Source of the DNA: Anaerobaca lacustris | GTDB lineage: Bacteria > Planctomycetota > Phycisphaerae > Sedimentisphaerales > Anaerobacaceae | Direction: 5' to 3' | Length of the DNA stretch: 33,107 nucleotides | NCBI RefSeq assembly: GCF_030012215.1 | Contig: NZ_JASCXX010000038.1 | Span: 1 to 33,107 of the forward strand | In this document: positions 2,901 through 26,340 of the stretch, piece after piece | Layout: every line of letters starts with the position of its first letter | Position numbering within the stretch: the stretch's first letter is position 1 | Notes under the pieces: generated by a model | The model's input: only the letters and a program-made list of their open reading frames with translations | What the model was told of the DNA's origin: nothing | Database searches by the model: none | Program-made: the position numbers and the translations under genes

Positions 2901-3032
2901 CGTAGAGAAACAGAGTATAATAACGGTTTTCGTTCCAATGGTCGCCAGGGACTTCTTGACCGGGTACGATTGCCCCTCTGGGTATGCACCTTTTTCGCAA
3001 GACGCCTGCGTCGATGGCATGAGGTGGTTTTG

Positions 3033-4364
3033 ATGGACTTTCTTTCATACGATGGCCGGGATATCATTCTGGATAGCGTCGCCGACGGCGTTTTCACGGT
3101 GGACCAGGACTGGCGCGTGACGTCCTTCAATCGCGCCGCGGAAGATATTACGGGCATCACGCGGGAGAAGGCCCTCGGGCAGCGCTGCAAGGACATCCTC
3201 AAGGCGGATGTCTGTGAGAGCGATTGTGCGCTGCGCCAGACGATGCAGACCGGGCGACCTGTGATTAATAAGCCGGTCCACATCGTCGATGCCCAAGGCC
3301 GGCGGAAATCGATCACGATTTCCAGTGCCCTGCTCAAGAATCGCGAGGGAGAGGTCATCGGAGGTGTGGAAACCTTTCGAGATATGACCGTCGTGGAAGA
3401 ACTGCGAAAGCAGTTGCAGAAACAGTATTGCTGCGAGGACATCATCAGTCAGAGCCACCGAGTGCAGGAGCTTTTCGACGTTTTGCCGCGGGTCGCAGAG
3501 AGCGACTGTACGGTTTTGATCGAGGGGGAGACGGGAACCGGGAAGGAACTTTTCGCTCGTGCACTTCATAGTCTCAGCCCACGACGGAAGAAACCATTCG
3601 TTGCGGTCAATTGCAGCGCGCTGCCCGACACGTTACTGGAATCGGAGCTGTTCGGTTACAAGGCCGGGGCTTTCACGGACGCGAAGAAGGACAAGCCGGG
3701 CCGGTTTGCACTGGCTCAGGGCGGGATCCTGTTCCTCGACGAAATCGGCGATATCTCTCCGGCGGTCCAGGTGAGACTGCTGCGCGTGCTCCAGGACAAG
3801 ACGTACGAACCGGTGGGTGGGGTCGGCACCGTCAAAGCCGACGTGCGCGTGGTCACCGCCACCAATAAGAACCTGTCCAGCCTGGTGGACGACGGCCGTT
3901 TTCGCAGGGACTTGTTCTACCGCATCAACGTCGTTCACTTTGAGCTTCCGCCGCTGCGCGAGCGCAAGGAAGACATTCGCCTGCTCGTCGATCACTTCAT
4001 CGCTCGATTCAATGCGCTCTATGGCAAGGACGTCTGTTGCGTGAGCAACGACGTCATGGCGGCACTCCTGGCCCATGATTTTCCCGGCAACATTCGCGAA
4101 CTCGAGAATATCATCGAGCACTGTTTCGTGTTGTGCCACGGCGAACTCATAGAGAGCCGTGACCTGCCTGATTCCCTTGGCAAGGACGGACAAAGGACCG
4201 GGGAGAGTCTGCAAGGGATCACCACGCTGAGGCAAATGGAGAAACTCATGATTGAGCAGGCGCTGCGGCGTCACCAAGGCAACCGTGCGGCGGCTGCCAA
4301 AGAGCTGGGCATCAATCCCAGCACACTCTTTCGCAAGCTCAAGACCCTGCAAATCGACCTCTGA
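3033..4364 (+). CDS. Sigma-54-dependent transcriptional activator (PAS-AAA+-Fis)
   Basis: 443 aa bacterial enhancer-binding protein. Domains in order: PAS sensor (about 8-125), AAA+ (about 135-370) and C-terminal Fis-type helix-turn-helix (GNRAAAAKELGINPSTLFRKL). Seen: Walker A GETGTGKE (165-172), Walker B LDEIGD (235-240) and arginine-finger region RFRRDLFYR. The sigma-54 contact loop reads GAFTDA (212-217) instead of GAFTGA. The PAS domain carries three closely spaced cysteines, C52, C61 and C65, which could bind a metal, Fe-S cluster or redox signal (inference). Start chosen at ATG 3033 behind GAGGTGG; an in-frame start at 2970 would add 21 residues without domain value. The gene lies immediately before a perfect -24/-12 promoter and is its most likely activator, as with the sigma-54 regulator of the Desulfovibrio orp genes. 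Confidence 0.92.
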   Translation: MDFLSYDGRDIILDSVADGVFTVDQDWRVTSFNRAAEDITGITREKALGQRCKDILKADVCESDCALRQTMQTGRPVINKPVHIVDAQGRRKSITISSALLKNREGEVIGGVETFRDMTVVEELRKQLQKQYCCEDIISQSHRVQELFDVLPRVAESDCTVLIEGETGTGKELFARALHSLSPRRKKPFVAVNCSALPDTLLESELFGYKAGAFTDAKKDKPGRFALAQGGILFLDEIGDISPAVQVRLLRVLQDKTYEPVGGVGTVKADVRVVTATNKNLSSLVDDGRFRRDLFYRINVVHFELPPLRERKEDIRLLVDHFIARFNALYGKDVCCVSNDVMAALLAHDFPGNIRELENIIEHCFVLCHGELIESRDLPDSLGKDGQRTGESLQGITTLRQMEKLMIEQALRRHQGNRAAAAKELGINPSTLFRKLKTLQIDL

Positions 4365-4558: not shown

Positions 4559-4574
4559 TGGCACGCTCCTTGCA
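4559..4574 (+). promoter_or_regulatory. Sigma-54 (-24/-12) promoter of the ORP-like operon
   Basis: TGGCACGCTCCTTGCA matches the sigma-54 consensus TGGCACG-N4-TTGCW at every position, with exactly 10 nt between the invariant GG (4560-4561) and GC (4572-4573). Transcription should start near 4585, giving a short leader before the AGGAGG site (4592-4597) and ATG 4607. The -24 box also forms half of a palindrome, CGTGCC-TATT-GGCACG (4550-4565). Together with the activator gene just upstream, this strongly suggests inducible, activator-dependent expression of the long operon that follows. Confidence 0.9.
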
Positions 4575-4606: not shown

Positions 4607-5014
4607 ATGAAACTGGCGATACCAAACTGGGAAGGTCGGGTCTCTAACGTGTTTGATTTTGCCCGTAAGGCGGTCATCGTGGAGATGAGCGATGCCAGGG
4701 AATTGGCCCGTTCGGAGGTGGCCCTTTCGCGGCAAGGTCCGGCCAACGTTGTCAAGCTCAGGCAACTGGGCGTAGACACGTTGATTTGCGGTGCGATCTC
4801 GCGCGTATCGGCCTCGTGGGCCTCGGTCTGCGGTATCCGATTGTTTTCTTATGTCACCGGCGGCATCGACGAAGTGATCGAAGCGTTCAAGAATGAGCAA
4901 CTTGGCTCGGAACGGTTTGTCTTGCCTGGGTGCTGGCCAAGCGTACAGAGGCCCCTTCGGCATCGCGCAGGTTGCCATGGCCGTCGATATGGTCACAGGG
5001 GCATGAAAAGATAA
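4607..5014 (+). CDS. NifX/NifB-like dinitrogenase iron-molybdenum cofactor domain protein (first gene of operon)
   Basis: 135 aa protein of the dinitrogenase Fe-Mo cofactor biosynthesis domain family (NifX, NifY, NifB C-terminus, ORP/MTH1175). Family members bind Fe-, Mo- or Cu-containing clusters. Seen: N-terminal MKLAIP strand, VDTLICGAIS and a C-terminal arm with LPGC and GCHGRRYGHRG, typical of the subfamily that ends in a Cys/Gly/Arg-rich tail. AGGAGG sits 9 nt before ATG 4607. As the first gene after the sigma-54 promoter, it should be strongly induced with it. The ligand is unknown. Confidence 0.8.
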   Translation: MKLAIPNWEGRVSNVFDFARKAVIVEMSDARELARSEVALSRQGPANVVKLRQLGVDTLICGAISRVSASWASVCGIRLFSYVTGGIDEVIEAFKNEQLGSERFVLPGCWPSVQRPLRHRAGCHGRRYGHRGMKR

Positions 5015-5072: not shown

Positions 5073-5435
5073 ATGAAGATCGCGATAACCGCGCAAGGAC
5101 CGGAACGGACGAGCGATGTGGACACGCGATTCGGCAGGGCCAAGTGGATCGTTGTAGTGGACACGGATACGGGCGAATCGCAATCGCACGACAACAAAGT
5201 GAACCTGACCCTTGCTCAGGGCGCCGGGATTCAAACCGGGCAGAACGTGGCCAACTTGGGCGTCGATGCGGTTATCACCGGCAACGTCGGTCCCAACGCG
5301 TACAAGACACTGGCTGCCGGCGAGGTCCGGATCTTTCTTGTTTCCGGTGGCTCCGTGGAACAGGCGGTCACCGCGTTCAAACAAGGCCAGTTGGAAGAGG
5401 TGCAGCAAGCCAATGTGGAGGGTCACTGGATATGA
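5073..5435 (+). CDS. NifX/ORP-like dinitrogenase cofactor domain protein
   Basis: 120 aa, a single domain of the same family as the preceding gene. It has MKIAIT at the N terminus, the FGRAKW strand, GAGIQTGQNV and the VITGNVGPNAYKTL segment that lines the cofactor site in NifX-like proteins. It lacks the Cys-rich tail of its neighbour and has no cysteine in the domain core. ATG 5073 is chosen because conserved sequence begins there; an upstream in-frame start at 5037 would add 12 poorly conserved residues. It is most similar in layout to the N-terminal domain of the fusion at 8116. Confidence 0.85.
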   Translation: MKIAITAQGPERTSDVDTRFGRAKWIVVVDTDTGESQSHDNKVNLTLAQGAGIQTGQNVANLGVDAVITGNVGPNAYKTLAAGEVRIFLVSGGSVEQAVTAFKQGQLEEVQQANVEGHWI

Positions 5436-5506: not shown

Positions 5507-6415
5507 ATGCAAACCTATTTGGATTGCTTTCCTTGTTTCGTGCGGCAGGCGTTGGACGCGGCGCGATTCGCCACGGACGACGAGCAAGTCCACGTGCGCG
5601 TGGTCCAGGAGGTCCTTCACCTGGCTGCTCGGATGGATACGCATCAGCCACCGCCGGTTATCGGGCAGCATGTCCATCGCCTGATCCGCAACATTACCGA
5701 GAAGGAAGACCCGTATTACGAGCAGAAGCACCGGTCGAATGAACTGGCCCTGAGGCTCTATGGCGAACTGGAACAGGACGTGGCAGGGGCAGCGGATCCG
5801 TTGGAGGCGGCGGTCCGGCTGGCGATCGCCGGCAACATCCTGGATTTCGGGGTCAACAGTGCGCTGGACTATGCCCAGGCCGAACAGATCATCAACGCAG
5901 CACTGGACGCGGAATTTGACGGCAGCGAATTGTCCGCTTTCTCCGACGCTGTGGCACAGGCCCGGGATATCCTCTATCTGGGTGACAACGCCGGGGAAGT
6001 CGTCTTCGACCGGGTCCTGCTCGAAAGACTACCTTACGACAAAGTGACCTTCGTGGTGAAGGGGTCGCCCGTCATCAATGATGCGACGATGGCGGACGCC
6101 GAGGCCGCCGGACTGACCGATCTGGTGGAGGTGATCACAAACGGCTCCGATGGACCAGGGACGATTCTGGAAACTTGCTCGCCCCAGTTTCGCGAACGCT
6201 TTGGCCAGGCCGACTTGATCATCGCCAAAGGTCAGGGCAATTATGAATCTCTCAGCGAGGTCCAGAAGTCCATATTTTTCATTCTGAAGGCCAAATGCCC
6301 GGTGATCGCAAGAGATCTTGGTTGCACCATCGGTGAGATGATTCTGCGTCGAAACGCAAAGTTTGGGATCGGATTCATTGCCGAAGATGAGGAGACAACC
6401 CATGCCAGGTTTTGA
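5507..6415 (+). CDS. DUF89 (ARMT1-like) metal-dependent phosphatase family protein
   Basis: 302 aa, full length for the DUF89 family of metal-dependent damage-control phosphatases. Seen: N-terminal DCFPCFVRQALDAAR with a CxxC pair characteristic of the prokaryotic subfamily, ILYLGDNAGEVVFDR (the metal-binding Asp-Asn region), VVKGSPVINDAT and IAKGQGNYES. It would hydrolyse phosphorylated metabolites in the cytosol; the substrate is not predictable. ATG 5507 follows AGGAAGA. The 3' end overlaps the next gene by 14 nt, indicating translational coupling within the operon. Confidence 0.87.
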   Translation: MQTYLDCFPCFVRQALDAARFATDDEQVHVRVVQEVLHLAARMDTHQPPPVIGQHVHRLIRNITEKEDPYYEQKHRSNELALRLYGELEQDVAGAADPLEAAVRLAIAGNILDFGVNSALDYAQAEQIINAALDAEFDGSELSAFSDAVAQARDILYLGDNAGEVVFDRVLLERLPYDKVTFVVKGSPVINDATMADAEAAGLTDLVEVITNGSDGPGTILETCSPQFRERFGQADLIIAKGQGNYESLSEVQKSIFFILKAKCPVIARDLGCTIGEMILRRNAKFGIGFIAEDEETTHARF

Positions 6416-6887
6416 TGGAACGGGACCTCAGGGAAAAGGCCCGCTGACGGGACGAGGTCTTGGGTACTGCGTGCTGCGGGAATCCGTCGGCCACCCGGCT
6501 GAGATCGAGGGCTGGACCGGCATTGACGGCGTCCCTGTGGCCAATCCGAATATCGACACAGAGGAACGAAGAAAGGACGTGATCCAGATGCCTTTCGGAG
6601 ATGGAAGAGGCCCCGGCGGCAGGGGACCCATGACAGGTCGAGCGGCTGGTTTCGGTGTGGGACTCCCCGTGGGCGGCTACAGGAATCCAAACGGTGCCCG
6701 GGGATATATGGCTCCGTATAACACGCCTGTCTCCAGCTACGGTCCGGGATACGGACTTCTGTATACCGGCTGGCTGGGCCGGTGGTTTCGGAGAGGCCTG
6801 GGCTTTGCCGGGGGTTTTGGCTTCAGGCGAGGCTTTGGTTTCGGTCGAGGTCGGCGCGGCGGTCGGGCCCGGTTCGGTTGCCGATAG
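6402..6887 (+). CDS. DUF5320-family Gly/Arg-rich protein, tandem domain
   Basis: 161 aa protein beginning MPGFDGTGPQGKGPLTGRG, the signature of DUF5320 proteins, which commonly neighbour ORP/NifX genes in anaerobes. A second copy of the signature (MPFGDGRGPGGRGPMTGRA) starts at residue 63. Its ATG at 6588 is preceded by GAAAGGA, so it could also be translated as a separate 99-residue protein. The C-terminal third is Gly/Phe/Arg-rich low complexity. Function is unknown; the context points to metal or cluster handling. Confidence 0.72.
   Translation: MPGFDGTGPQGKGPLTGRGLGYCVLRESVGHPAEIEGWTGIDGVPVANPNIDTEERRKDVIQMPFGDGRGPGGRGPMTGRAAGFGVGLPVGGYRNPNGARGYMAPYNTPVSSYGPGYGLLYTGWLGRWFRRGLGFAGGFGFRRGFGFGRGRRGGRARFGCR
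6623..6652 (+). repeat. 30-bp direct repeat, copy 1
   Basis: These 30 bases, encoding GPMTGRAAG, are identical to 7215-7244 in the third DUF5320-type gene, 592 nt downstream. Identity at DNA level, including third codon positions, in otherwise diverged genes suggests recent duplication or gene conversion. Confidence 0.85.
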
Positions 6888-6926
6888 GGAGTATTTCAGC
6901 ACAAACGCTTGGAAAGGATGCATGTC

Positions 6927-7154
6927 ATGCCAAGAGGAGACGGTACAGGCCCAATAGGGCAGGGTCCCGGCACGGGGCGCGGATTGGGGCGAGGCCAGGG
7001 TCAAGGGCGAGGTCGCATGGGCGGTCCGCTGGCCGCCGGGCCGACGGGAATCTGCATCTGTCCGAAATGTGGATATCAGATGGCGCACGTGCGAGGAGAA
7101 CCCTGCACGCAGAGAAGTTGTCCTCACTGCGGCGTATCCATGACACGACGGTAA
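6927..7154 (+). CDS. Small DUF5320-like protein with C-terminal zinc ribbon
   Basis: 75 aa. The N-terminal half has the DUF5320-like signature (MPRGDGTGPIGQGPGTGRG) and Gly/Arg/Gln repeats. The C-terminal half has CPKCGYQMAH and a second CPHCG pair, forming a probable zinc- or iron-binding ribbon. GGAAAGG lies 9 nt before ATG 6927, which favours it over the in-frame ATG at 6918. The gene lies between two DUF5320 genes and shares their N-terminal module. Confidence 0.72.
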   Translation: MPRGDGTGPIGQGPGTGRGLGRGQGQGRGRMGGPLAAGPTGICICPKCGYQMAHVRGEPCTQRSCPHCGVSMTRR

Positions 7155-7179: not shown

Positions 7180-7518
7180 ATGCCAGGTGGTGATGGAACC
7201 GGTCCCGCCGGGATGGGACCCATGACAGGTCGAGCGGCTGGTTTTTGCGCGGGTTATCCCACAGCAGGTTATATGAATTCGGTCGGTGGCAGAGGCTACT
7301 GGGGTTGGGGCCGCGGCCGAGGCGGTGGCTGGGGTCGGCGCAACTGGTACCATGCGACCGGCTTGCCGTTCTGGGCACGAGGCCTGCAAGGTTTTGTCGG
7401 TGCGGCGAGCCCCGACCAAGAACGCGAGTCGCTGAGGCAGCAGTCACAATACCTCCAGGATTCGCTGGACGCGATCAATCGGCGCATCGAAGACCTGGAA
7501 AAAGAGAAGGCCCGATAG
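7180..7518 (+). CDS. DUF5320 family protein with C-terminal coiled coil
   Basis: 112 aa: the N-terminal signature MPGGDGTGPAGMGPMTGRAAG, a Gly/Trp/Arg-rich middle, and a C-terminal predicted coiled coil (residues about 80-112, ending in INRRIEDLEKEKAR). This is the canonical DUF5320 architecture. AGGAG lies just before ATG 7180. It contains the second copy of the 30-bp identical repeat. Function is unknown. Confidence 0.8.
   Translation: MPGGDGTGPAGMGPMTGRAAGFCAGYPTAGYMNSVGGRGYWGWGRGRGGGWGRRNWYHATGLPFWARGLQGFVGAASPDQERESLRQQSQYLQDSLDAINRRIEDLEKEKAR
7215..7244 (+). repeat. 30-bp direct repeat, copy 2
   Basis: Identical to 6623-6652; see that entry. It lies within the coding sequence of the coiled-coil DUF5320 protein. 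Confidence 0.85.
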
Positions 7519-7899: not shown

Positions 7900-8103
7900 A
7901 TGCCGTTGTATGAGTACAAGTGCAAGAAATGTGGTCGGACGACCGAGTTCCTCGAGAGAGGCTCCGGTCGCGACCGTCACGTATGCCCCGAGTGTGGAGG
8001 CACGGACCTGCAAAAGCTCTTCTCGACGTTCGCGGCGGGACGAAGCGATTCGAAAGCCGGCGGCGTCAGTTCCTGTCCCACGGGGACGTGTCCGCTGAGT
8101 TAA
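7900..8103 (+). CDS. FmdB-type zinc ribbon protein
   Basis: 67 aa starting MPLYEYKCKKCG, the signature of FmdB/CxxC_CxxC regulatory-type zinc ribbons. A second pair, CPECGG, lies about 25 residues later, and a Cys-containing tail (SSCPTGTCPLS) follows. GAGGGGG precedes ATG 7900. FmdB proteins were named from formamidase/formylmethanofuran operons as putative regulators; their biochemical role is unclear. Similar proteins occur at 11012 and 17066. Confidence 0.85.
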   Translation: MPLYEYKCKKCGRTTEFLERGSGRDRHVCPECGGTDLQKLFSTFAAGRSDSKAGGVSSCPTGTCPLS

Positions 8104-8115
8104 GAGGGAAAGACT

Positions 8116-9021
8116 ATGAAAGTCGCAGTGACCTGTACAGGCCCAACGCTGGACGACCAGGTGGAAGTGCGTTTTGGACGATGTCCGTATTTCCTCATCG
8201 TCGATACGGAGTCGATGGATTTCGAAGTCGTGGAGAATCCCAACACCGCTCTCGGGGGTGGAGCCGGGATTCAGTCGGCGCAGATGATGGCCGAAAAAGG
8301 CGTCAGTCACGTCCTGACGGGCAATTGCGGTCCCAATGCGTTCAGCGTTTTCGGGCAAGCAGGTATTGACGTGATCGTGGGCGTCAGCGGCCGGGCGCGC
8401 GACGCCGTGGAGCGGTTCAAGGCCGGCGAATTCTCGTCGGCCAGCGCCGCAAACGTGCAAAGCCACTTCGGCATGGCAGCGGGTGCTCCACCGGAGCCGA
8501 TCACGAACACCGGTTTCGCCGATCCTCCGATGGGCATGACCGGCATGGGTATGGGCCGAGGCGGTGGTCGTGGTATGGGCGGTGGCCGGGGCATGGGCGG
8601 CGGTCGTGGTATGGGTGGCGGTGGTGGCATGGGTGGCGGTCGCGGCATGGGCGGTAGTCGTGGCATGGGTGGCGGTGGTGGCATGGGACGAGGCAAAGGC
8701 ATGGGGTTTGGAATTGGCTGGAACCCCTGGATCGGGCCAGGGGAATCGACCACGCTCCCGTCCGGTACAGGAGGGGGCTCTCAGGCCAATCCGTCGGTAC
8801 GTGGCGGTGGGTCACACAGCGTTCGAAAGGCGGTGGCGCTGGTCCGGTCCGAACGATGTGGAGGCTGCGGCATTTGTGTCGATGTCTGTCCGGTCGGTGC
8901 AATCCGGATCGAAGGCGATCGCGCCGTGGTCGACCCACTTCGATGCACGGCGTGCGCCGCCTGCGTCGCGGAATGTCCCAACGAGGCCGTGATCATCGTA
9001 CAGCAGAGAATTGAATCCTGA
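8116..9021 (+). CDS. NifX/ORP-like domain fused via Gly-Met repeats to a 2[4Fe-4S] ferredoxin
   Basis: 301 aa with three parts. Residues 1-115 are a dinitrogenase-cofactor domain (MKVAVT, VEVRFGRCPYF, VLTGNCGPNAFSVF). Residues about 139-200 are a low-complexity linker built of GMGGGRGMGG-type repeats. Residues 246-301 form a bacterial ferredoxin with two complete CX2CX2CX3C motifs (C248/C251/C254/C258 and C277/C280/C283/C287). The architecture suggests a cofactor-carrying domain with its own electron-transfer or cluster-donor module. ATG 8116 follows GAGGGAAAG. The repeat region could vary in length by slippage. Confidence 0.87.
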   Translation: MKVAVTCTGPTLDDQVEVRFGRCPYFLIVDTESMDFEVVENPNTALGGGAGIQSAQMMAEKGVSHVLTGNCGPNAFSVFGQAGIDVIVGVSGRARDAVERFKAGEFSSASAANVQSHFGMAAGAPPEPITNTGFADPPMGMTGMGMGRGGGRGMGGGRGMGGGRGMGGGGGMGGGRGMGGSRGMGGGGGMGRGKGMGFGIGWNPWIGPGESTTLPSGTGGGSQANPSVRGGGSHSVRKAVALVRSERCGGCGICVDVCPVGAIRIEGDRAVVDPLRCTACAACVAECPNEAVIIVQQRIES

Positions 9022-9567: not shown

Positions 9568-9798
9568 ATGCCGACAACGCAATACAAGGCGACGGAGATT
9601 GAAGTGGGATTTCATCCCGACGGCTATCGGATCGACAAGACAGCTTCGCCGATGAATCGTTACACCAGGTGGGAGATCGATTCAGGGGATCGGTGGACCC
9701 ATCCGACGCCGGTCTGTTTCGACTCCCTGCCGGTCAGCGGGTGGCTCAAGAGCGATGGATTCGACTGGGACCGGGCGGACGGAGGCCAAGGCGCATGA
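9568..9798 (+). CDS. Small hypothetical protein
   Basis: 76 aa, family not recognised. It is rich in Asp, Trp and aromatic residues (RYTRWEIDSGDRWTHPTP and WLKSDGFDWDRADGG), with a single cysteine and no membrane segment. GGAGAG precedes ATG 9568, and the stop overlaps the next start by ATGA, so it is almost certainly translated and coupled to the MinD-type ATPase. It may be an accessory or partner subunit of that ATPase (inference). Confidence 0.62.
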   Translation: MPTTQYKATEIEVGFHPDGYRIDKTASPMNRYTRWEIDSGDRWTHPTPVCFDSLPVSGWLKSDGFDWDRADGGQGA

Positions 9799-10646
9799 AG
9801 ATTGTGATCGCCAGCGGCAAAGGAGGAACGGGCAAGACGACGATCGCGACGAATCTGGCGGTCGCGCTGGCCCGAGCGGGCCGGAAGGTGCAATATCTCG
9901 ATTGTGACGTCGAAGAACCGAACGGCCATATCTTTCTGAAGCCACATATTGAGACGACCCAAGACGTCACGGTGGGGGTTCCCGAAGTCGATGCAGCCAA
10001 ATGCACTGGATGTGGTCGTTGCGGTGAGCTCTGCCAGTACAGTGCCATCGTCTGCATCAAGGGGAAGGTGATGACCTTCGAACAGCTCTGCCACTCCTGT
10101 GGCGGCTGCATGGCGATCTGCCCAGAGTCCGCCATTGCAGAAAAGCAGCGGAAGATCGGCGTGGCCGAATACGGCGCTGCGGACGGTTTGGCCTTCGGCC
10201 ATGGCACATTGGACATCGGCGTCATCCAGACGCCTGCCCTGATTCGTCGTGTGAAACAACATGCGCAGAACGGTGCGATCACCATCCTGGATGCTCCGCC
10301 CGGGACGTCCTGCCCGGTCATCCAGGCAGTCAAGGGCGCGGATTTCGTCCTGCTGGTCACAGAGCCGACGCCCTTCGGATTGAACGATCTGGAACTGGCC
10401 GTGGGGATGATCCGAGAGTTAGAACTCCCCTTTGCCGTGGCCATCAATCGTTCGGACATGGGAGACGACGGCGTCGCGCAGTATTGTCGCCGGGAGGGTA
10501 TCGAGATCGCGATTGAGATTCCGAACGATCGCAGGATCGCCGAGGCCTACTCGCGCGGCGAGGTGGTGGTCGATGTTCTGCCGGAGTACCTGACGGAATT
10601 CAGTGGGCTTTTTGGACGAATGGAACAGTGGATGTCTGCCCGATGA
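9795..10646 (+). CDS. MinD/ParA-family ATPase with inserted 2[4Fe-4S] domain (ORP-associated), copy 1
   Basis: 283 aa. Deviant Walker A GKGGTGKT at residues 8-15, Asp-rich switch DCDVEEPN, a ferredoxin insertion with C70/C73/C76/C80 and C99/C102/C105/C109, then the second half of the ATPase (ILDAPPGTSCPV, LLVTEPTPFGLNDL). This matches the cobyrinate-diamide-synthase-like/MinD ATPases with ferredoxin inserts that accompany ORP in Desulfovibrio. It probably couples ATP hydrolysis to cluster or cofactor transfer. It starts at ATG 9795, overlapping the upstream stop (ATGA), and ends overlapping the J-domain gene in the same way. Confidence 0.9.
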   Translation: MKIVIASGKGGTGKTTIATNLAVALARAGRKVQYLDCDVEEPNGHIFLKPHIETTQDVTVGVPEVDAAKCTGCGRCGELCQYSAIVCIKGKVMTFEQLCHSCGGCMAICPESAIAEKQRKIGVAEYGAADGLAFGHGTLDIGVIQTPALIRRVKQHAQNGAITILDAPPGTSCPVIQAVKGADFVLLVTEPTPFGLNDLELAVGMIRELELPFAVAINRSDMGDDGVAQYCRREGIEIAIEIPNDRRIAEAYSRGEVVVDVLPEYLTEFSGLFGRMEQWMSAR

Positions 10647-11293: not shown

Positions 11294-11320
11294 CGTCGAA
11301 ACTGGTGAGGAAGAAGATTG

Positions 11321-12211
11321 ATGAAGGAACTCGTGGTCATCAGCGGTAAAGGGGGAACGGGCAAGACGAGCATCACGGCGGCGTTTGCGTCCCTGGCGCA
11401 GAACGCCGTTCTGGCGGATTGCGATGTGGATGCCGCGGACCTGCACCTGGTATTGGAACCGAACGTCAGAGAGATATCGGATTTTTCCGGCGGCAAGCAG
11501 GCGGCGATCGACACTCAGAAGTGCATCGGGTGCGGGCGCTGTGAGGATCTGTGCCGGTTCGATGCCATCCGGCCTAATGGACCAGGTAACACCATCGCCG
11601 TCAAGACCTATACCGTTGACCCTGTTTCCTGCGAAGGGTGCAAGGTCTGCGTCGAGTTCTGTCCTGTCGACGCGATCGCGTTTAATGATGCGATCAACGG
11701 TCAGTGGTTCATCTCGGACACGCGCTTCGGATCGATGGTCCATGCGAAACTGGGGATCGCCGAGGAGAACAGCGGTAAACTGGTGACGCTGATCCGCCAA
11801 AAGGCCAAGGAAGTTGCGGTCGAGCATGGGGCCAACCTGATTATCGCCGACGGGTCGCCGGGAATCGGCTGTCCCGTGATCGCATCCATCACCGGCGCGG
11901 ATTTGGTGTTGATCGTCACGGAGCCGACCTTGTCGGGCCGGCACGATCTCGGTCGTGTGGCCGATCTGACCGCCAGTTTCGGGATCCGGACCCTGCTGTG
12001 TATCAACAAGGCCGACATCAATCCTCAGATGACGGCCCGGATCACGGAAGAGGCTCACAAGCGGGGCATCAAGATGGTTGGGGAGATCCCCTACGATGAC
12101 GCCTTCACCAAGGCCCAGATTATGAAGGCAACCGTTCCGGAATACACCGGCGGAGAAGTTACGGAGCGAATCAAGGCCCTCTGGCGGCAGGTCACCTATG
12201 CTCTCGGATAA
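11321..12211 (+). CDS. MinD/ParA-family ATPase with inserted 2[4Fe-4S] domain (ORP-associated), copy 2
   Basis: 296 aa, paralogue of the ATPase at 9795. Walker A GKGGTGKT (9-16), DCDVDAADLH switch region, ferredoxin insert with C68/C71/C74/C78 and C104/C107/C110/C114, and IIADGSPGIGCPV followed by LIVTEPTLSGRHDL. Paired Fd-MinD ATPases are the hallmark of ORP clusters, where they probably form a hetero-complex. ATG 11321 follows GAGGAAGAA. The 3' end overlaps the following methyltransferase by 14 nt. Confidence 0.9.
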   Translation: MKELVVISGKGGTGKTSITAAFASLAQNAVLADCDVDAADLHLVLEPNVREISDFSGGKQAAIDTQKCIGCGRCEDLCRFDAIRPNGPGNTIAVKTYTVDPVSCEGCKVCVEFCPVDAIAFNDAINGQWFISDTRFGSMVHAKLGIAEENSGKLVTLIRQKAKEVAVEHGANLIIADGSPGIGCPVIASITGADLVLIVTEPTLSGRHDLGRVADLTASFGIRTLLCINKADINPQMTARITEEAHKRGIKMVGEIPYDDAFTKAQIMKATVPEYTGGEVTERIKALWRQVTYALG

Positions 12212-12914
12212 GGACGGGACGCTTGTGAACGAAGGCGCGACAAGTCATTTTGACTTCGGCAGAATTGCGTCTCGCTACGACGCGTGGTACTGGACGCCGC
12301 GCGGCGCGATGTACGATCGGTTGGAGAAGAGAGCGATAGACAGTCTGCTGCCCTCCAGTTCTGACGGCGGCAAGCTCCTGGAGATCGGCTGTGGCACCGG
12401 ACACTTCAGCGAACATTTCGCCAACAAGGGATTTGACGTGACCGGAGTAGATATTGCAGAACCGATGGTCGCCATGGCGCGGCAGAAGAACATCACAGAC
12501 AGCAGATTTGAAGTGGCCAATGCGGAACACCTGCCGTTTGAGGACGAGACCTTCGATGTGGCGGCCTCCATCACTGTGCTGGAGTTCGTGTCCAATCCCG
12601 TTCGTGTGGTCTCGGAAATGATCCGATGCACAAGGAAGCCCGGCGGCATGCTGATCCTGGGAGTCCTGAACCGCTGGTCTGCCTACAACCAGCGGAGGAA
12701 GCAGCGGACCACCAGCTTACATGCTTCAGCGAACCTGTTTTCTCCCGACGAGCTGCGGGATCTGCTCGAGCCGTTTGGCGCTGTGACGGTCCGAGTCGCC
12801 GGCTTCGTTCCCCAAAAATATGCGCTTATCGGGTTGTCGCCGCTATTGGAGTGGATCGGCCGCCTGGTGCGCAACCAGCACGGCGCCTTTCTTGCCGCCA
12901 GGGTGGTATTATGA
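12198..12914 (+). CDS. Class I SAM-dependent methyltransferase
   Basis: 238 aa, Methyltransf_11 type: motif I LLEIGCGTGHFSEHF (about 55-69), GVDIAEPM, the AEHLPFEDETFDV region and RKPGGMLILGVLNRWSAY. The substrate is unknown. The start lies inside the preceding ATPase gene and the stop overlaps the next ATG by 4 nt, so it is firmly embedded in the operon. A role in modifying a cofactor or protein of this system is possible but inferred only from position. Confidence 0.87.
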   Translation: MLSDKDGTLVNEGATSHFDFGRIASRYDAWYWTPRGAMYDRLEKRAIDSLLPSSSDGGKLLEIGCGTGHFSEHFANKGFDVTGVDIAEPMVAMARQKNITDSRFEVANAEHLPFEDETFDVAASITVLEFVSNPVRVVSEMIRCTRKPGGMLILGVLNRWSAYNQRRKQRTTSLHASANLFSPDELRDLLEPFGAVTVRVAGFVPQKYALIGLSPLLEWIGRLVRNQHGAFLAARVVL

Positions 12915-13189
12915 AGATCCAAGCGGAAGTGAGCCTTTATCCCTTGCGGATCAGGGAGCTCTCCGATCCCATTGTCCGATTCTGCGAAATATTGCGGTCG
13001 CACGGGCTCGACGTTCAGACCCGATCCATGAGCACCCTTGCCGCAGGCGAATCCAACGATCTGTTTGGCGCATTACAGGATGGTTTCGAGCGTCTGGCTC
13101 AGGAGAACCAGCTCGTAATGGATGTCAAAATCTCCAACGCCTGTCCCGACACGGCAAAACAGAACGCGGAAATCGAAAGGATGGACTGA
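12911..13189 (+). CDS. YkoF/MTH1187-family thiamine-binding-like protein
   Basis: 92 aa with the MTH1187/YkoF fold signature: an N-terminal strand VSLYPLR, ILRSHGLDVQTRSMSTLAAGESNDLFGALQDGF, and a C-terminal strand MDVKISNACP. Family members are small dimeric or tetrameric ferredoxin-fold proteins, some of which bind thiamine derivatives. The ATGA overlap with the methyltransferase argues for coupled translation. The ligand in this context is unknown. Confidence 0.75.
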   Translation: MKIQAEVSLYPLRIRELSDPIVRFCEILRSHGLDVQTRSMSTLAAGESNDLFGALQDGFERLAQENQLVMDVKISNACPDTAKQNAEIERMD

Positions 13190-13191
13190 GT

Positions 13192-14076
13192 ATGGCCGGC
13201 AGCACGGTTTCAAGTCAGCAGAATGCGGAGTACCAGAAGCAGATGCAGATCGAGCAGGCTCAAATCCGGCAGCGGATGGCCCGGATCGGCCGCAAGATTC
13301 TCGTTCTTTCCGGCAAAGGCGGGGTGGGCAAGAGCACGGTCGCCGTCAATCTCGCCATCTCGCTGTCCCTGGCGGGCAAACGAACCGGACTGCTCGACAT
13401 CGATATCCATGGACCGAGCGTCCCCAAGATTCTGAATCTGGAAGGCAAGATGGTGGGCGGCATGCCCGATGCGATTCTGCCGGTGGAACTGAACGCAAAC
13501 CTCAAGGTCATGTCGATCGGGTTCCTCCTGTCATCGGCTACCGATGCGGTGATTTGGCGCGGCCCCCGAAAGTACCACATGATCAAACAGTTCCTCAAGG
13601 ATGTGGAATGGGGCGAACTCGATTACCTAATTATCGATTCACCGCCGGGCACAGGTGACGAACCGTTGGCGATTATCCAACTTCTGGAGACCGCCGACGG
13701 CGCCGTCGTGGTGACCACGCCGCAAGAGGTGGCCCTGTCGGATGTCCGCCGCGGGATCACTTTCTGCCGCAGCCTGGATCTACCCGTGCTGGGCGTTCTG
13801 GAGAACATGAGCGGATTCGTCTGCCCAACGTGCGGCCAGCGAACCGACATCTTCAAATCGGGCGGTGGCGAGAGTATGGCTGCATCGATGGACGTACCGT
13901 TTCTGGGGCGGATTCCCATCGATCCGCAGATCGTCGAGGCCTGCGATTCAGGACAGCCCTACGTGGACAAATATCGACAGAGCCAGGCTGCACAGGCGTT
14001 CAGCGAGGCGGTGATACGCCTGGTGGGAACCCATAGCGAGTCGGTGATGACAACAGGTCAGAAAGGAGATCAATAG
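13192..14076 (+). CDS. Mrp/ApbC/NBP35-family Fe-S carrier ATPase
   Basis: 294 aa P-loop ATPase. Deviant Walker A GKGGVGKS at 41-48, DIDIHGPSVPK switch, DYLIIDSPPGTGDEPL (Walker B) and the FVCPTCG motif with the bridging-cluster cysteines C211 and C214. Family members bind a [4Fe-4S] cluster between subunits and deliver it to apo-targets. The N terminus has about 30 Gln/Glu-rich residues instead of a DUF59 domain. It starts at ATG 13192, 2 nt after the previous stop, and is followed after 1 nt by the ORP-like gene, as in the Mrp-ORP pairing of sulfate reducers. Confidence 0.92.
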   Translation: MAGSTVSSQQNAEYQKQMQIEQAQIRQRMARIGRKILVLSGKGGVGKSTVAVNLAISLSLAGKRTGLLDIDIHGPSVPKILNLEGKMVGGMPDAILPVELNANLKVMSIGFLLSSATDAVIWRGPRKYHMIKQFLKDVEWGELDYLIIDSPPGTGDEPLAIIQLLETADGAVVVTTPQEVALSDVRRGITFCRSLDLPVLGVLENMSGFVCPTCGQRTDIFKSGGGESMAASMDVPFLGRIPIDPQIVEACDSGQPYVDKYRQSQAAQAFSEAVIRLVGTHSESVMTTGQKGDQ

Positions 14077-14077
14077 C

Positions 14078-14416
14078 ATGCGCATAGCGATTCCCATGGC
14101 ACAGGGCCAATTAAGCCTCCACTTCGGGCATTGTGATGAATTCGCAATCGTGGACGTGAATACCGAAGAGCAACGTGTTTCAGGAACACACACGATGGTG
14201 CCGCCGTCACACGCGCCCGGTGTGTTGCCTCAGTGGCTTCGGCAGCAGGATGTCAACGTGGTCATCGCCGTCGGGATGGGCAGCCGGGCCCAGATGCTCT
14301 TTGCCCAGAATGGGATCGACGTGATCATTGGCGCCTCCGCCGGCGGTCCGCAGGCGATCGCCACTGCATACCTGGATGGCTCGCTCCAGACCGGGGCCAA
14401 CATCTGCGATCACTAG
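14078..14416 (+). CDS. ORP/NifX-like dinitrogenase cofactor domain protein (last gene of operon)
   Basis: 112 aa single domain: MRIAIPMAQG, SLHFGHCDEF, VVIAVGMGSRAQMLFAQNGIDVIIGA. It resembles orange protein and MTH1175-type proteins; ORP itself carries a mixed Mo-Cu-S cluster. ATG 14078 lies 1 nt after the Mrp stop, with AAAGGAGAT upstream. The tight link to Mrp suggests Mrp loads or unloads its cluster (inference from conserved neighbourhood). This is the fourth copy of this domain in the operon. Confidence 0.85.
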   Translation: MRIAIPMAQGQLSLHFGHCDEFAIVDVNTEEQRVSGTHTMVPPSHAPGVLPQWLRQQDVNVVIAVGMGSRAQMLFAQNGIDVIIGASAGGPQAIATAYLDGSLQTGANICDH

Positions 14417-22117: not shown

Positions 22118-25100
22118 TCAGCCCAAGATTTCTGCCATGTCGCGGCGGGCATGAGTGAAGAGCACGTACAGGCAAGGCATCAGGAACAGGGCCACCAGAA
22201 TCTCCATCCCCAGACCGCCGATGGCGGCGACCGCCATGGGTTGGAGCATGTCGCCGCCCTCCTCCAGATTCAGCGCCAGCGGCAGGAATCCGATCATGGT
22301 GGTCACGGTTGTCATGATGCGTGGTCGCAGGCGTGTTTTCGCGGCGGCGACGATGGCCTCGCATGGCGTCCGGTTCTTCCGGTCCTGAAGTTCGCCCGCG
22401 TAGGTCAGCAACAGGACGCCGTCGTTAACGGTGGCGGCCACGACGACCAGCACGCCAATGATGACCGTGGCGCCCAGAGGCAGATGCGTTACGTACAGAA
22501 GAAATACGACGCCCGACAGACAGACCGGCACGCTGCCCAGAATCAATCCCGGCAAACGAAGACTGTTGAACTGCACGGTCAGCACGATGAAAGAGAAGAA
22601 TAGGGCAAAGGCCAGGACCGCCAGCACGGCATCCCTCATGTCGGCCATCATCCGGGCCCGCCCCCCGAAGTCGAATTCGTAGCCCGTCGGCCGATCGATC
22701 TCGGCCAGTACGGCCTGCAACGACCGAACCGCACCGGCCAGATCACCTTCGGCCATGTCCGCCTCGACGGTGATCTGCTTGATCTGGTTCTCCCGAATGA
22801 TCTCCACCGGCCCCGACGCCGGCGTGACGGTGGCGATGTCCCGCAAACGCAACGGCTCGCCCTGACCACGAGACAGCGGCAAGTTTTCCACATCCTGGCG
22901 CGTTGTGATGCATTGGGGCCGAACCAGAACGCGAATATCGTGATACTCCGTGCCATCCCGGAACCGGCTGGCGATCACGCCGGTAATCAACGACCGCAGG
23001 GTCGTCGCCACCTCGGAGACCGACACGCCAAGCTCGGCGGCCTTGATCCGATCCACCTTGACCTGGTACTCCGGCTTCGACAGATCCATAGAGAGCGAGA
23101 CGTTCACGAACGGTCCGGCCTCGCGGATTTGCTGCGCGGTACGGTTCGCCAGACCGGCAAGCGTCTCCATTTCCTGGCCGCGAACCTGCACGACGATGTC
23201 CGAGCCCCGTATGCCCGGAATGCCGCGGATGGGCATTTGTCGAGCCATGGCCCGGCCGCCAGGCGGCTGGAGCTTGCCGACAACCTGACGGAGCCGTCGG
23301 ACGTAGTCTTCGGTGCTGACGCCGCGCCGGGCGCGGCCAATGAGTTGAAGGTTTAGCTCGCCTTCATTGGCGATTTCGTGGGTGGTCAACCCCATGACCT
23401 TTCCACCGGCGAGGGTGAACATGCTTTCGATCAGCGGATCGCCTTGAAGCTGTTCTTCGATGGCCCGAAGGGCCCGGTCGGTCTCATGGACGCTCGTCCC
23501 AGTGGCCATCCTGACTTTGACCATGATCCGCCCGTCATCGATCAGAGGCAAGAACTCGCCGCCAAGCCGACCCAACAGAGCACCGGCGGCGATAAGAGCC
23601 AGAGCGAACAACGGCATGGCGATCCATCGCCATCCAACGATGCGTTCGAGAAGCCACCCATAGCCATCGGTGAATCGGCCGAAGAACCGTGCGAACCAGC
23701 CCGCCTGCCGCTTCGGTCCCCGGCTGCCGAAGAGAGTGGCCGTAACCATCGGGGTCAACGATACAGCCACGGCCAGACTGATCAGGACAATGCCTGCGAT
23801 GACCAGGATCAGCTCACGAAAGAGCAGGCTGGTCAGGCCCGGGACGATCAGGAACGGCACAAACAGGGCCAGAAACGACAACGTCGCCGCCACAAGGGCC
23901 GGCCCGACCTCGCTGGTTGCGTCCACCGCGTGCCCGGCCGCATCCTGATCGGGACGTTCTCGCCGCAGGCGGGAGATGTTCTCCACGACGACAATGGAAT
24001 TGTCCAGCACGATGCCGATGGCGACAACCAGCCCACCGAGAGAGAAAAGGTTGAGAGAGAAGCCGGCGAGCTTCATCAGCCCGAAATTGAGCACCAGGGT
24101 CAGAGGCAGGGCAATAACCATCACCAGCACCTGCCGTACACTGCCCAGGAAGAGATAGACCACAACGATCAGTAGCACTGCAGCCGCCAGAGCGGCATTG
24201 CGGACGCCCGCCAGGGCCTGTTTGACGTAGACCGCCTGATCCTCCACGTAATCGAGCTGAACGCCTTCAGGCAACGTTGGACGCAACTCCTGCAGAAGCC
24301 GGTTCACCCTTTCGGCCACCTGAACCGTGTTGGCCTCGGCCTCCTTCAGCACCGAGAGCGTGACACACTCACGGCTGTTGAAGCGGGTCATCATCCGCAC
24401 ATCCTCATGGCCGTCGACCACTTCGGCGATGTCACGCAGATACACTTTCCGGTGTCCGTCGGACGCAATGACAACGGCGCGCATGTCCTCGATGTCAGCG
24501 AACTCGCCCAGCGTCCGCGCGATGATTTCCCTGGTGCCGACCGTCACCCGCCCGCCGGCCCGTTCGACGTTCTCGGCGGCAACGCGCCGAATCACCGTAT
24601 CGAGGGACAGCTTGTGCTTTTCCATAGCCGCCGGGTCGAGCAGGATGCGGATCTCGCGCACAAGTCCGCCGACGATCTCGGTGCCCGCCACGCCGGCCAT
24701 CGCCAGGATGCGATCCTGCAACCAGTTGTCCGCCCAATCCCGCAACGTCACCGGATCCCACCGGTCGGAGCTGACTGCCAATCGCATTACCGGAAGTTGC
24801 GACGGGTCGGCCTTGAAGACATAGGGCGCTTCGATATCGGAAGGCAGTTGCCTCTGCGCGCGGGTCAGGGCAGCCAGAACATCCTGGAACGCGACGTCGA
24901 TGTCGGCGCCGTACTCAAAATGCACATCCAACGCATAGAGTCCCTCGATGCACGAGGATTCGAGGTAGTCCAGGCGGTCGACCGTAGCGACCAGCCGCTC
25001 CACCGGATCGGCGATTTCCGTGTCGATTTCCTCGGGCGTGGCCCCAGCCCATCGGATCTCCACTTTGATGAGGGGGTAGGTGACGTTCGGCAGGTAATCG

Positions 25101-25201
25101 ACGGGAAGATGCCGGAGGCCATAGACGCCAAGGGCCACAAGCGATACGGCGATGGCCCCGGTGGCCAGTCGACGGTGAACGGCGTAGTGTGTCAGCTTCA
25201 T
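22118..25201 (-). CDS. RND-family efflux pump, inner-membrane transporter
   Basis: 1027 aa, full length for a COG0841 (AcrB/MdtB/SwrC-like) transporter: TM1 near residues 12-30, large periplasmic loop, TM2-6 (about 335-470) including GLVVAIGIVLDNSIVVVENI in TM4, a second periplasmic loop and TM8-12 at the C terminus ending in FLMPCLYVLF. TM4 has a single Asp followed by Asn (LDN) where many drug pumps have two Asp. Substrates may be drugs, lipophiles or metal; not decidable by eye. It overlaps the fusion protein gene by 4 nt. Confidence 0.93.
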   Translation of the reverse strand: MKLTHYAVHRRLATGAIAVSLVALGVYGLRHLPVDYLPNVTYPLIKVEIRWAGATPEEIDTEIADPVERLVATVDRLDYLESSCIEGLYALDVHFEYGADIDVAFQDVLAALTRAQRQLPSDIEAPYVFKADPSQLPVMRLAVSSDRWDPVTLRDWADNWLQDRILAMAGVAGTEIVGGLVREIRILLDPAAMEKHKLSLDTVIRRVAAENVERAGGRVTVGTREIIARTLGEFADIEDMRAVVIASDGHRKVYLRDIAEVVDGHEDVRMMTRFNSRECVTLSVLKEAEANTVQVAERVNRLLQELRPTLPEGVQLDYVEDQAVYVKQALAGVRNAALAAAVLLIVVVYLFLGSVRQVLVMVIALPLTLVLNFGLMKLAGFSLNLFSLGGLVVAIGIVLDNSIVVVENISRLRRERPDQDAAGHAVDATSEVGPALVAATLSFLALFVPFLIVPGLTSLLFRELILVIAGIVLISLAVAVSLTPMVTATLFGSRGPKRQAGWFARFFGRFTDGYGWLLERIVGWRWIAMPLFALALIAAGALLGRLGGEFLPLIDDGRIMVKVRMATGTSVHETDRALRAIEEQLQGDPLIESMFTLAGGKVMGLTTHEIANEGELNLQLIGRARRGVSTEDYVRRLRQVVGKLQPPGGRAMARQMPIRGIPGIRGSDIVVQVRGQEMETLAGLANRTAQQIREAGPFVNVSLSMDLSKPEYQVKVDRIKAAELGVSVSEVATTLRSLITGVIASRFRDGTEYHDIRVLVRPQCITTRQDVENLPLSRGQGEPLRLRDIATVTPASGPVEIIRENQIKQITVEADMAEGDLAGAVRSLQAVLAEIDRPTGYEFDFGGRARMMADMRDAVLAVLAFALFFSFIVLTVQFNSLRLPGLILGSVPVCLSGVVFLLYVTHLPLGATVIIGVLVVVAATVNDGVLLLTYAGELQDRKNRTPCEAIVAAAKTRLRPRIMTTVTTMIGFLPLALNLEEGGDMLQPMAVAAIGGLGMEILVALFLMPCLYVLFTHARRDMAEILG

Positions 25202-26340
25202 CGGGGCTCATCCTGTCGCTGGGGCTTCTGCTGGCCGGAGTGCGACGCGGTATCCGGATTGTGTGCATCGCCGGCTTTCTTCTCGCCCGAGAGACTGACG
25301 GCGACTCCATCCCTGAGATTCTCATTGCCGGCGACGATGATCTGGTCGCCGGGGCGGACACCTGCAACAATCTGAATGCGGTTGCCGTCCTCAATGCCGG
25401 TCTGGACCGGACGTCGGACGGCCTTGCCTTCCTCGACAACATAGACCGCTTTGCCGCCCGGCGTCGCCACGATCGCCTCCAGCGGCACCACCACCGCTTC
25501 GTCAGCGGTTTCCAGCAACACCCTCAATCGGGCAAACATGCCGGGCAGAAGATCGACGGACTCGTCTAACGCAATCTCCATCGTCCTCGTGCGTGAGGCA
25601 AGATCCAGATAGGGATATACCCGATCAATGCGACCGGACATTGTCTCAGTCGGGTAGGCATCCAGCCGGACCTCGACGCGCATGCCGCGCCGTACCTCGG
25701 CGGCGTGTCTCTCAGGAACGGCCGCCTGAATCACCAGGCTGGATGGGTCGTACATTTCCAGCAACGGCATGCGAGGCGCTACGAATTCGCCTTCCTTGAC
25801 AAGCACGTGGGACACCACCCCGTTCCACGGCGCGGCGATGGCATAATCCTGCGCTCGTTCCTCAGCTTGGACCAGTTGCGCCCGAACTCGTTCGACAGCC
25901 ACCGTGGCCTGATCGAGTTGTTCGGCCGGTACGGCCTCGCGTACGACGAGCTGTCGGGTCCTGCGAAGGTTGTCCTGCTCTTTCTTGAGTTCCTCTTGAA
26001 GCGAGACGATCAGCGCGTCGACGCCGGTTCGTCGTCCGATGGAGAGCAATGGGTCGCCGGTGCGGACCCGGTCGCCTTCGCGCACGCGGAGATCCGTCAC
26101 CGGGCCCTCGGCCGGGCCGGCCAATCGCGCCAGGCGATAGGGCTCCACCGAGCCGGTCAACTCCAGTACGACCGACAAGGCCTCCCTCACCGCAGGCTGT
26201 GTCCGGACAGTCGGTGGCCTCTGCTGGCCCGATGGTTGGCTCGCCTCCGGTCGGCTGGAGGCACTGCTGCGAATCAGCAACACTGCGGCCACAGCCAGTG
26301 CCGCGACAACCAGCGGTATCAAAACCGTTCGCTTTTTCAT
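25198..26340 (-). CDS. RND periplasmic adaptor (membrane fusion protein)
   Basis: 380 aa. N-terminal signal/anchor segment (VLIPLVVAALAVAAVLLI), barrel-sandwich halves (GPVTDLRVREGDRVRTGDPLL and AIAAPWNGVVSHVLVKEGEFVAP) flanking an alpha-hairpin, then beta-barrel and MP domains (VRPGDQIIVAGNENLRDGVAV). It bridges the RND pump and outer-membrane channel. ATGA overlaps on both sides show one translational unit. Confidence 0.92.
   Translation of the reverse strand: MKKRTVLIPLVVAALAVAAVLLIRSSASSRPEASQPSGQQRPPTVRTQPAVREALSVVLELTGSVEPYRLARLAGPAEGPVTDLRVREGDRVRTGDPLLSIGRRTGVDALIVSLQEELKKEQDNLRRTRQLVVREAVPAEQLDQATVAVERVRAQLVQAEERAQDYAIAAPWNGVVSHVLVKEGEFVAPRMPLLEMYDPSSLVIQAAVPERHAAEVRRGMRVEVRLDAYPTETMSGRIDRVYPYLDLASRTRTMEIALDESVDLLPGMFARLRVLLETADEAVVVPLEAIVATPGGKAVYVVEEGKAVRRPVQTGIEDGNRIQIVAGVRPGDQIIVAGNENLRDGVAVSLSGEKKAGDAHNPDTASHSGQQKPQRQDEPR

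Follow-up and report, generated by a model that had tools for sequence, protein, structure and literature searches.

A predicted NifX-ferredoxin fusion protein with a glycine- and methionine-rich arm in Anaerobaca lacustris and related loci

A NifX domain and a ferredoxin in one chain

The window (the whole stretch of 33,107 nucleotides that was analysed) carries on its forward strand, at positions 8116-9021, an open reading frame which starts with ATG, contains no internal stop and encodes 301 amino acids. According to the ORF list, the translation and the Pfam scan, the gene joins a NifX domain, a Gly/Met/Arg arm and a dicluster ferredoxin. The NifX/ORP-fold domain (residues 1-118; 8116-8469, +), delimited by Pfam, the structure model and alignment, matches Nitro_FeMo-Co PF02579 (NifX family) over residues 13-102 with an E-value of 9.6e-25. 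The 2[4Fe-4S]-type ferredoxin domain (residues 236-299; 8821-9012, +), delimited in the same way, matches the Fer4 and dicluster Fer4 models over approximately residues 242-291 and also polyferredoxins, RnfB and similar chains. Its eight cysteines (C248, C251, C254, C258, C277, C280, C283 and C287) are each kept in all 32 fused proteins of the alignment, i.e. that of the window and those of 31 other loci. Between the two domains lies a linker (residues 119-235; 8470-8820, +) which is predicted to be disordered from block pLDDT values of 37 to 65 and from its composition, and within which DNA repeat analysis recognised an 18-bp tandem repeat encoding GMGGGR units (8560-8687, +). The original prediction of a NifX-like domain, a Gly-Met linker and an eight-cysteine ferredoxin in one chain was thus correct.

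The AlphaFold model of the fusion (32 sequences) consists of two well-folded heads, residues 1-118 and 236-299, with pLDDT values mostly above 90 in the NifX domain, and of an unstructured linker of low confidence. The closest solved structure is the ORP of D. gigas (2WFB; E-value 8.4e-12, rmsd 1.4, 42% identity), and the TM-score of 0.87 by target length places the model in the ORP fold, a relationship to which sequence comparison of the NifX domain likewise points. There is however a difference in two cysteines. Among 79 aligned sequences, a set drawn from the best 80 of 532 loci, Cys71 occurs in all 79 and Cys23 in 69, whereas both are absent from 2WFB, 1EO1 and 1RDU (ORP and MTH1175), the D. 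gigas ORP chain having Val in place of Cys71 and Ala in place of Cys23 in the alignment. No Mrp domain was found by the Pfam scan within 8116-9021, so that the fusion is not a one-chain MrpORP.

We considered whether a frameshift or accidental readthrough has merged two genes, and rejected this because no stop interrupts the frame and a fusion with two intact cluster motifs is seen again at 32 of the best 80 of 532 loci. A proline-rich antisense frame (8307-8753, -) runs across the repeat and is most likely a by-product of this GC-rich sequence.

Gene cluster and promoter

All genes of the window that are given with coordinates in this section lie on the forward strand. A CoA-disulfide-reductase-like flavoprotein with a C-terminal rhodanese domain (39-1721), whose scores against the reductase models stay under the equivalog cut-offs, and a sigma54-dependent activator with a PAS domain (2970-4364; domain scans) precede a sigma54 -24/-12 consensus site without any mismatch (4559-4574), approximately 33 bp before the ATG at 4607. 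This ATG starts a NifX-like protein (4607-5014; a weak match of 23.3 bits, below cut-off), followed by a single-domain NifX/ORP-like protein without cysteine (5073-5435; ORF list and Pfam), a DUF89/ARMT1-like damage-control phosphatase (5507-6415; domain scans), a DUF5320 protein with an aromatic/Gly/Arg tail (6402-6887; domain scan and composition), a DUF5320-like protein (6909-7154; 27.5 bits at a cut-off of 27), a DUF5320 protein with a Trp/Gly/Arg stretch, the end of which weakly matches a short coiled-coil family (7180-7518), and an FmdB-type zinc ribbon protein (7900-8103; domain scans). Behind the fusion gene, domain scans recognised a MinD/ParA-like ATPase with inserted ferredoxin motifs resembling Orp3/Orp4 (9795-10646) and a second one with an inserted ferredoxin domain (11318-12211). 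An Mrp/NBP35 ATPase, the true start of which lies inside the ORF (12820-14076), and a NifX/ORP domain protein (14078-14416) are adjacent to each other. The former aligns with positions 1-256 of the MrpORP model NF041136 and the latter with 265-365, so that MrpORP is split into two adjacent genes in the window; the former scores 398 bits against this model, the whole-protein cut-off being 450. At other loci, Mrp and a NifX domain are found in a single frame. A DnaJ-domain protein also belongs to the cluster, as does a frame which we take, by its motifs, to be a peptide deformylase.

Many of these genes recur. Of the best 80 of 532 loci, 62 have a MinD-type gene, 54 have DUF5320, 32 Mrp, 28 FmdB, 25 the sigma54 activator and 11 a gene of the CoA-disulfide-reductase/rhodanese type, all of which are lower bounds since short contigs are included; MinD-type is here a label for any frame of at least 180 amino acids that best matches one of the two MinD-ferredoxin genes of the window, its ferredoxin motif being unchecked. 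At 21 related loci the activator lies on the + strand with 600 bases behind it. There, the activator gene is followed by a sigma54 site with no more than one mismatch in 12 of 21 cases compared with 3 of 395 control stretches, and by one with no more than two mismatches in 16 of 21 compared with 25 of 395, leaving 9 of the 21 loci with no site at the stricter limit. Across the window, sigma54-like sites with up to two mismatches are not in excess (16 versus a chance mean of 15.0), and only the exact site at 4559 was used. Judging from sequence, the neighbourhood of the fusion gene is an expanded ORP-type cluster of the sigma54 type.

The orp operons of D. vulgaris are reported to be under control of sigma54 and the activator DVU2106 (PMC3897727), and the ORP complex to include MrpORP, Orp8 as well as Orp3 and Orp4 with their ferredoxin motifs (PMC6345978). 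The gene cluster of the window shares with the Desulfovibrio ORP system the ORP fold, MinD-like ATPases with ferredoxin inserts, the parts of MrpORP, and a sigma54 activator and site. It differs in the split of MrpORP, and the DUF5320, FmdB and DUF89 partners and the NifX-ferredoxin fusion are not among the features described in the accessible parts of these two papers (PMC6345978, PMC3897727). MrpORP (NF041136) resembles our protein in being a fusion with an ORP/Di-Nase domain, in its Fe-S relation and in the kind of gene cluster, but its partner domain is the Mrp ATPase instead of a ferredoxin and a Gly-Met arm is not among its features in the accessible descriptions.

One could imagine that the fusion is an ORP homologue with a Mo-Cu sulfide cluster, in which thiomolybdate bound to the NifX domain would receive Cu(I) from the arm, methionine being a ligand of this ion, and the ferredoxin would be accessory. 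This would agree with ORP as the closest solved relative and with the reported homology of Orp8 to proteins that hold the S2MoS2CuS2MoS2 cluster (PMC6345978). The site must differ, however, since 2WFB lacks both conserved cysteines, and no Mo or Cu gene was recognised among the recurrent neighbours in a search that covered the gene families of the window. We consider such a function improbable.

Genome context

The family name of PF02579 is all that would speak for a NifX involved in nitrogenase cofactor synthesis. The nitrogenase-component family PF00148 has no match in the genome, which is 97.9% complete, whereas the same search was positive in 4 of 14 control genomes, and this role has so little probability left that we regard it as ruled out by the missing match. 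The haem-copper oxidase family PF00115 has no match in the 97.9% complete genome either. PF02579 is reported among the families that predict an anaerobic life, with 64.9% of anaerobes and 7.6% of aerobes possessing it (PMC13386939), and the host bacterium is probably anaerobic. In addition, the genome contains four ferritin-family matches, so that another iron store may exist.

Distribution of the fusion and of its modules

The fusion with two intact cluster motifs is found at 32 of the best 80 of 532 genome loci, a selection from which all fractions lean towards query-like sequences. L044 (2491-3315) is fused as well, with Phe replacing a cluster cysteine in the first ferredoxin motif, and one cluster may be missing there. 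Counting L044, the 33 fused loci among the best 80 of 532 carry eight different phylum labels in their record titles: 20 are Planctomycetota, 6 are labelled Myxococcota (a doubtful label, as the titles say Deltaproteobacteria), 2 are Krumholzibacteriota, and Fermentibacterota, Zixiibacteriota, Lentisphaerota, Pseudomonadota and Thermodesulfobacteriota are represented by one locus each. When counted by genome the fusion appears to be rare. It is present in at least 7 of 61 genomes (that of the window and 60 relatives; the positive ones are the window's own, G019, G023, G026, G039, G043 and G060), a number which rests on nine loci read. Among 392 genomes of the same phylum (at least 80% complete, with at most six candidates scored per genome), 24 have profile matches at E ≤ 1e-30, NifX-only ones included, and in G039 and G098 a single match runs through to the ferredoxin; the window's own profile match ends at position 169 although the frame continues. 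The term "uncommon" in the original prediction therefore seems to hold for the frequency per genome, but less so for the recurrence under eight phylum labels. A characterised example was not found in the literature searched, which included few subscription journals. The architecture thus appears to be shared by several groups of bacteria and to be uncharacterised so far.

The modules are evidently shuffled. Among the best 80 of 532 loci, the NifX domain with its arm occurs without a ferredoxin at 47 and with one at 33, L044 being counted as fused here, in the neighbour counts and in the tree, and as non-fused in the averages of arm composition. Ferredoxins with a cationic Gly/Arg-rich C-terminal tail are found near ORP-type genes (L088:1912-2469, L075:10390-10881 and L070:8757-9284), at L110 a DUF5320-like start is joined to a ferredoxin, and small free ferredoxin frames lie directly behind the NifX gene at L110, L098 and L040. 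In a tree of the NifX domains, the ferredoxin label has to change 10 times, just 2 of these changes being imposed by well-supported branches, and a single origin of the fusion does not emerge from it; the tree was built from 119 columns, 43 of its 82 inner branches are weak, MTH1175 sits on a long branch and IssA is absent. In detail, L085 (which has a masked stretch) was left out of alignments A2, consisting of the window and 31 fused loci, and A3, L044 was left out of A2, A3 and A4, and the window protein, L056, L058 and L109 were left out of A3.

Two further NifX-family genes are located on another contig of the same genome (G000:C9:163564-163926 and G000:C9:159622-159891), the first of which is 51% identical to the fused NifX domain and has neither arm nor ferredoxin.

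Composition and conservation of the arm

The 117 residues of the low-confidence linker include 51 Gly, 13 Met, 9 Lys or Arg and 3 Asp or Glu, resulting in a net charge of +6. The Gly-Met stretch within it, with a Gly/Met/Arg core at approximately residues 138-196, is about 60 residues long and encoded by 7.1 copies of the 18-bp repeat. It contains 12 Met in 62 residues (P of about 4e-8 against an assumed Met content of 2.5%, for a stretch picked after the fact), and the claim of a Met-rich linker of this length has thus held. The original prediction had named the loss of Met in orthologues as grounds to abandon it; Met is kept in 33 of 33 fused sequences (the window and 32 loci of the best 80 of 532), with 2 to 19 Met in each core. 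Both the P value and this conservation argue that the Met richness is not due to chance.

On average the fused cores consist of 58% Gly, 23% Met, 15% Arg/Lys and 0.3% acidic residues, with a median pI of 12 (n = 33), and the remaining 48 of 81 arm cores of 61% Gly, 20% Met and 15% Arg/Lys. As the cores were picked by a score for G, M, R and K, the summed share of these residues is inflated by design, but the share of Met relative to other hydrophobic residues is unaffected. In the 81 tails, i.e. those of the window and the best 80 of 532 loci, Met occupies the middle of a GxG triplet 480 times, as compared with 335 for Gly, 316 for Arg and 37 for Ile, Leu, Val and Phe taken together. Aromatic residues make up approximately 2% of 80 NifX tails as against 18% for Met. 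Pure repeat slippage as the source of Met is unlikely, because the Gly codons are mixed: the median of the 81 tails uses all four, the commonest at 50%, which argues that Met does not simply reflect fresh slippage. The short cores of L095, L099, L100 and L113 hold one or two Met each, and in the non-fused relative L111 the arm is free of Arg and Lys (pI 5.5).

The same kind of arm, with cores of 11 to 52 residues, forms the end of the ferredoxin-less NifX homologues at 47 of the best 80 of 532 loci. This has a bearing on the suggestion that the fusion is a member of the ORP-type cluster whose arm is a mere tether, which would be consistent with the resemblance of the gene cluster to the orp gene set, with the conservation of Cys71 and Cys23 and with the disorder of the arm in the AlphaFold model. 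A tether would however have no need for Met in place of Ile, Leu, Val or Phe, and at these 47 loci the arm is C-terminal and has no ferredoxin behind it to be held. We therefore regard the suggestion as worth keeping in mind, yet somewhat unlikely.

Binding of Cu(I) by the Met arm, as proposed originally, is possible. That the linker as such serves as a Cu(I)-binding or copper-buffering arm seems quite improbable to us, even though Met occurs in every fused sequence (33 of 33, best 80 of 532 loci) and the arm of the window starts with an MxMxxM-like motif. The Met residues are regularly spaced with Arg, His and Cys are absent from the Gly/Met core of the window protein, a secretion signal is not seen by eye, and the genes that recur nearby are those for MinD, Mrp and DUF5320. 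In addition, IssA, the closest experimental precedent, pairs a cationic Gly-rich tail with an anionic iron-sulfide (PMC5524996).

DUF5320 and a coiled coil in most fused relatives

In most fused relatives the arm seems to be more than a linker, as it matches DUF5320, coiled coil included, and an arm of similar kind also ends ferredoxin-less NifX homologues. DUF5320 matches 26 of 32 members of the larger fused alignment at E ≤ 0.001, and 6 of the 7 sequences in the first alignment at E ≤ 0.1. When relatives were scanned individually, all seven fused proteins exceeded the curated cut-off and all three non-fused ones stayed below it, and in these seven the match spans the Gly-rich part together with the coiled coil. 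Among the ferredoxin-less homologues, 27 of 47 (from the best 80 of 532 loci) match at E ≤ 0.001. Matches of this kind can be inflated by low complexity, yet they include the coil, and in the AlphaFold model of the relative L041 a helix of 31 residues (198-228) separates the arm from the ferredoxin. The window protein itself has no match to DUF5320 (PF17253) in the Pfam scan and the alignment searches, and no comparable helix in its AlphaFold model; by eye the coil is seemingly absent also from its nearest relative, L040, with 80% identity in the NifX domain.

The standalone DUF5320-type proteins of these loci are of a different kind than the Met-rich fusion arm, being rich in aromatic residues, Gly and Arg: in 81 proteins the stretches, which were chosen to maximise these letters, contain on average 37% Gly, 16% Arg/Lys and 21% aromatic residues. 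In the window, the proteins encoded at 6402-6887 and 7180-7518 have Trp/Phe/Gly/Arg stretches which resemble the published make-up of the IssA tail. DUF5320, a term that occurs once each in just two of the 5.39 million papers searched, thereby gains a proposed context.

Relationship to IssA and IssX

IssA of Pyrococcus furiosus (PF2025) is described as an IPR003731 domain with a Gly-rich, cationic tail which is predicted to be unstructured, has a pI of 10.7 and contains 15 Gly, 7 cationic and 14 aromatic residues out of 70, a role having been proposed for the aromatic ones (PMC5524996). The protein binds and stores thioferrate, forms nanoparticles and, together with DTT, reconstitutes [4Fe-4S] ferredoxin in vitro by giving iron and sulfide to the apo-ferredoxin; this transfer needs a thiol, dithionite or TCEP being ineffective (PMC5524996). 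The same source refers to a non-thermophilic clade with high pI and Gly-rich tails as IssX and calls it uncharacterised (PMC5524996); among the matches listed, no further literature on IssX was evident by title. Methanococcus voltae is reported to up-express two distant IssA homologues when growing on pyrite (PMC8516115).

Insofar as the accessible parts of these reports allow a comparison, the fusion is like IssA and IssX in its N-terminal NifX/IPR003731 domain with few cysteines and in its unstructured, Gly-rich, cationic C-terminal arm, and the link of these proteins to ferredoxin cluster assembly in vitro has a parallel in the ferredoxin of the fusion. It differs from IssA in having a ferredoxin in cis, two conserved domain cysteines and, in most fused relatives, a coiled coil of the DUF5320 type, as well as in being encoded within an ORP-type cluster that carries a sigma54 site. 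The arm, too, is different, being rich in Met whereas that of IssA is rich in aromatic residues and Pro. The fusion hence does not have the IssA type of arm, in which Trp or other aromatic residues accompany Gly and Arg; this aromatic type is found on the neighbouring DUF5320 proteins. In its layout, the fusion resembles known IssA-like and ORP-like proteins, the Met arm with a ferredoxin in cis being what sets it apart.

A possible role in iron-sulfide storage and cluster assembly

We propose, with a probability of roughly 40%, that the fusion is a metal-sulfide scaffold similar to IssA/IssX within an ORP-type cluster, with the ferredoxin as acceptor or electron donor in cis. The domains, the predicted disorder, the conservation, the gene cluster and the promoter sequence described above are observations; every metal step below, as well as the direction of electron or cluster flow, we infer. 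The NifX/ORP-fold domain would nucleate or hold an iron-sulfide cluster or chain, aided by Cys71 and Cys23. The flexible and nearly acid-free Gly/Met/Arg arm might wrap the anionic, thioferrate-like sulfide by means of Arg and Lys, and the thioethers of Met could take the role that has been proposed for the aromatic residues of IssA. The tethered dicluster ferredoxin would either be the first to receive clusters as they leave the store or serve as the reductant that converts ferric sulfide into [4Fe-4S] units, and the MinD-ferredoxin ATPases, Mrp and the DUF5320 proteins of the cluster may be its partners.

This scaffold is suggested by the ORP fold, the IssA-like chemistry of the tail, the precedent of IssA itself, the shuffling of the modules and the ORP-type cluster with sigma54, and it is also supported by the fact that neither nitrogenase nor haem-copper oxidase was found in the 97.9% complete genome. 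It is weakened by the lack of the IssA aromatics in the arm (approximately 2%), by the modest net charge of the window linker, by the ferritin-family matches of the genome, which may stand for another iron store, and by the arm of L111 with its pI of 5.5. The ferredoxin as reductant is the branch weakened by the finding that IssA required a thiol and that dithionite or TCEP failed (PMC5524996). Because the two conserved cysteines are absent from ORP and MTH1175, the NifX domain is as likely to hold a discrete cluster as a mineral.

More speculatively, and rather unlikely as a whole, anaerobes may possess a sigma54-controlled compartment for the storage and delivery of iron-sulfide, in which cationic Gly/Arg arms of the Met type (NifX) and of the aromatic type (DUF5320) would co-assemble around anionic metal sulfide and the fusion would be the port from stored iron-sulfide to [4Fe-4S] clusters.

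Little is known about the storage and delivery of iron-sulfur material in strict anaerobes, and IssA is the sole thioferrate protein studied biochemically in the literature consulted here. The fusion hints at how such cells may hold this material and build iron-sulfur clusters, and its combination of arm and dicluster ferredoxin within an ORP-type cluster means that a single construct could test how storage, cluster assembly and the ORP complex are connected.

Other genes in the window

Farther downstream, on the reverse strand, the region 22118-28225 contains genes which by eye resemble those for an RND efflux pump, a membrane fusion protein, a TolC-like protein and a heavy-metal-sensor-like protein, and a large frame at 30855-32726 (-), likewise named by eye, resembles a group II intron reverse transcriptase.
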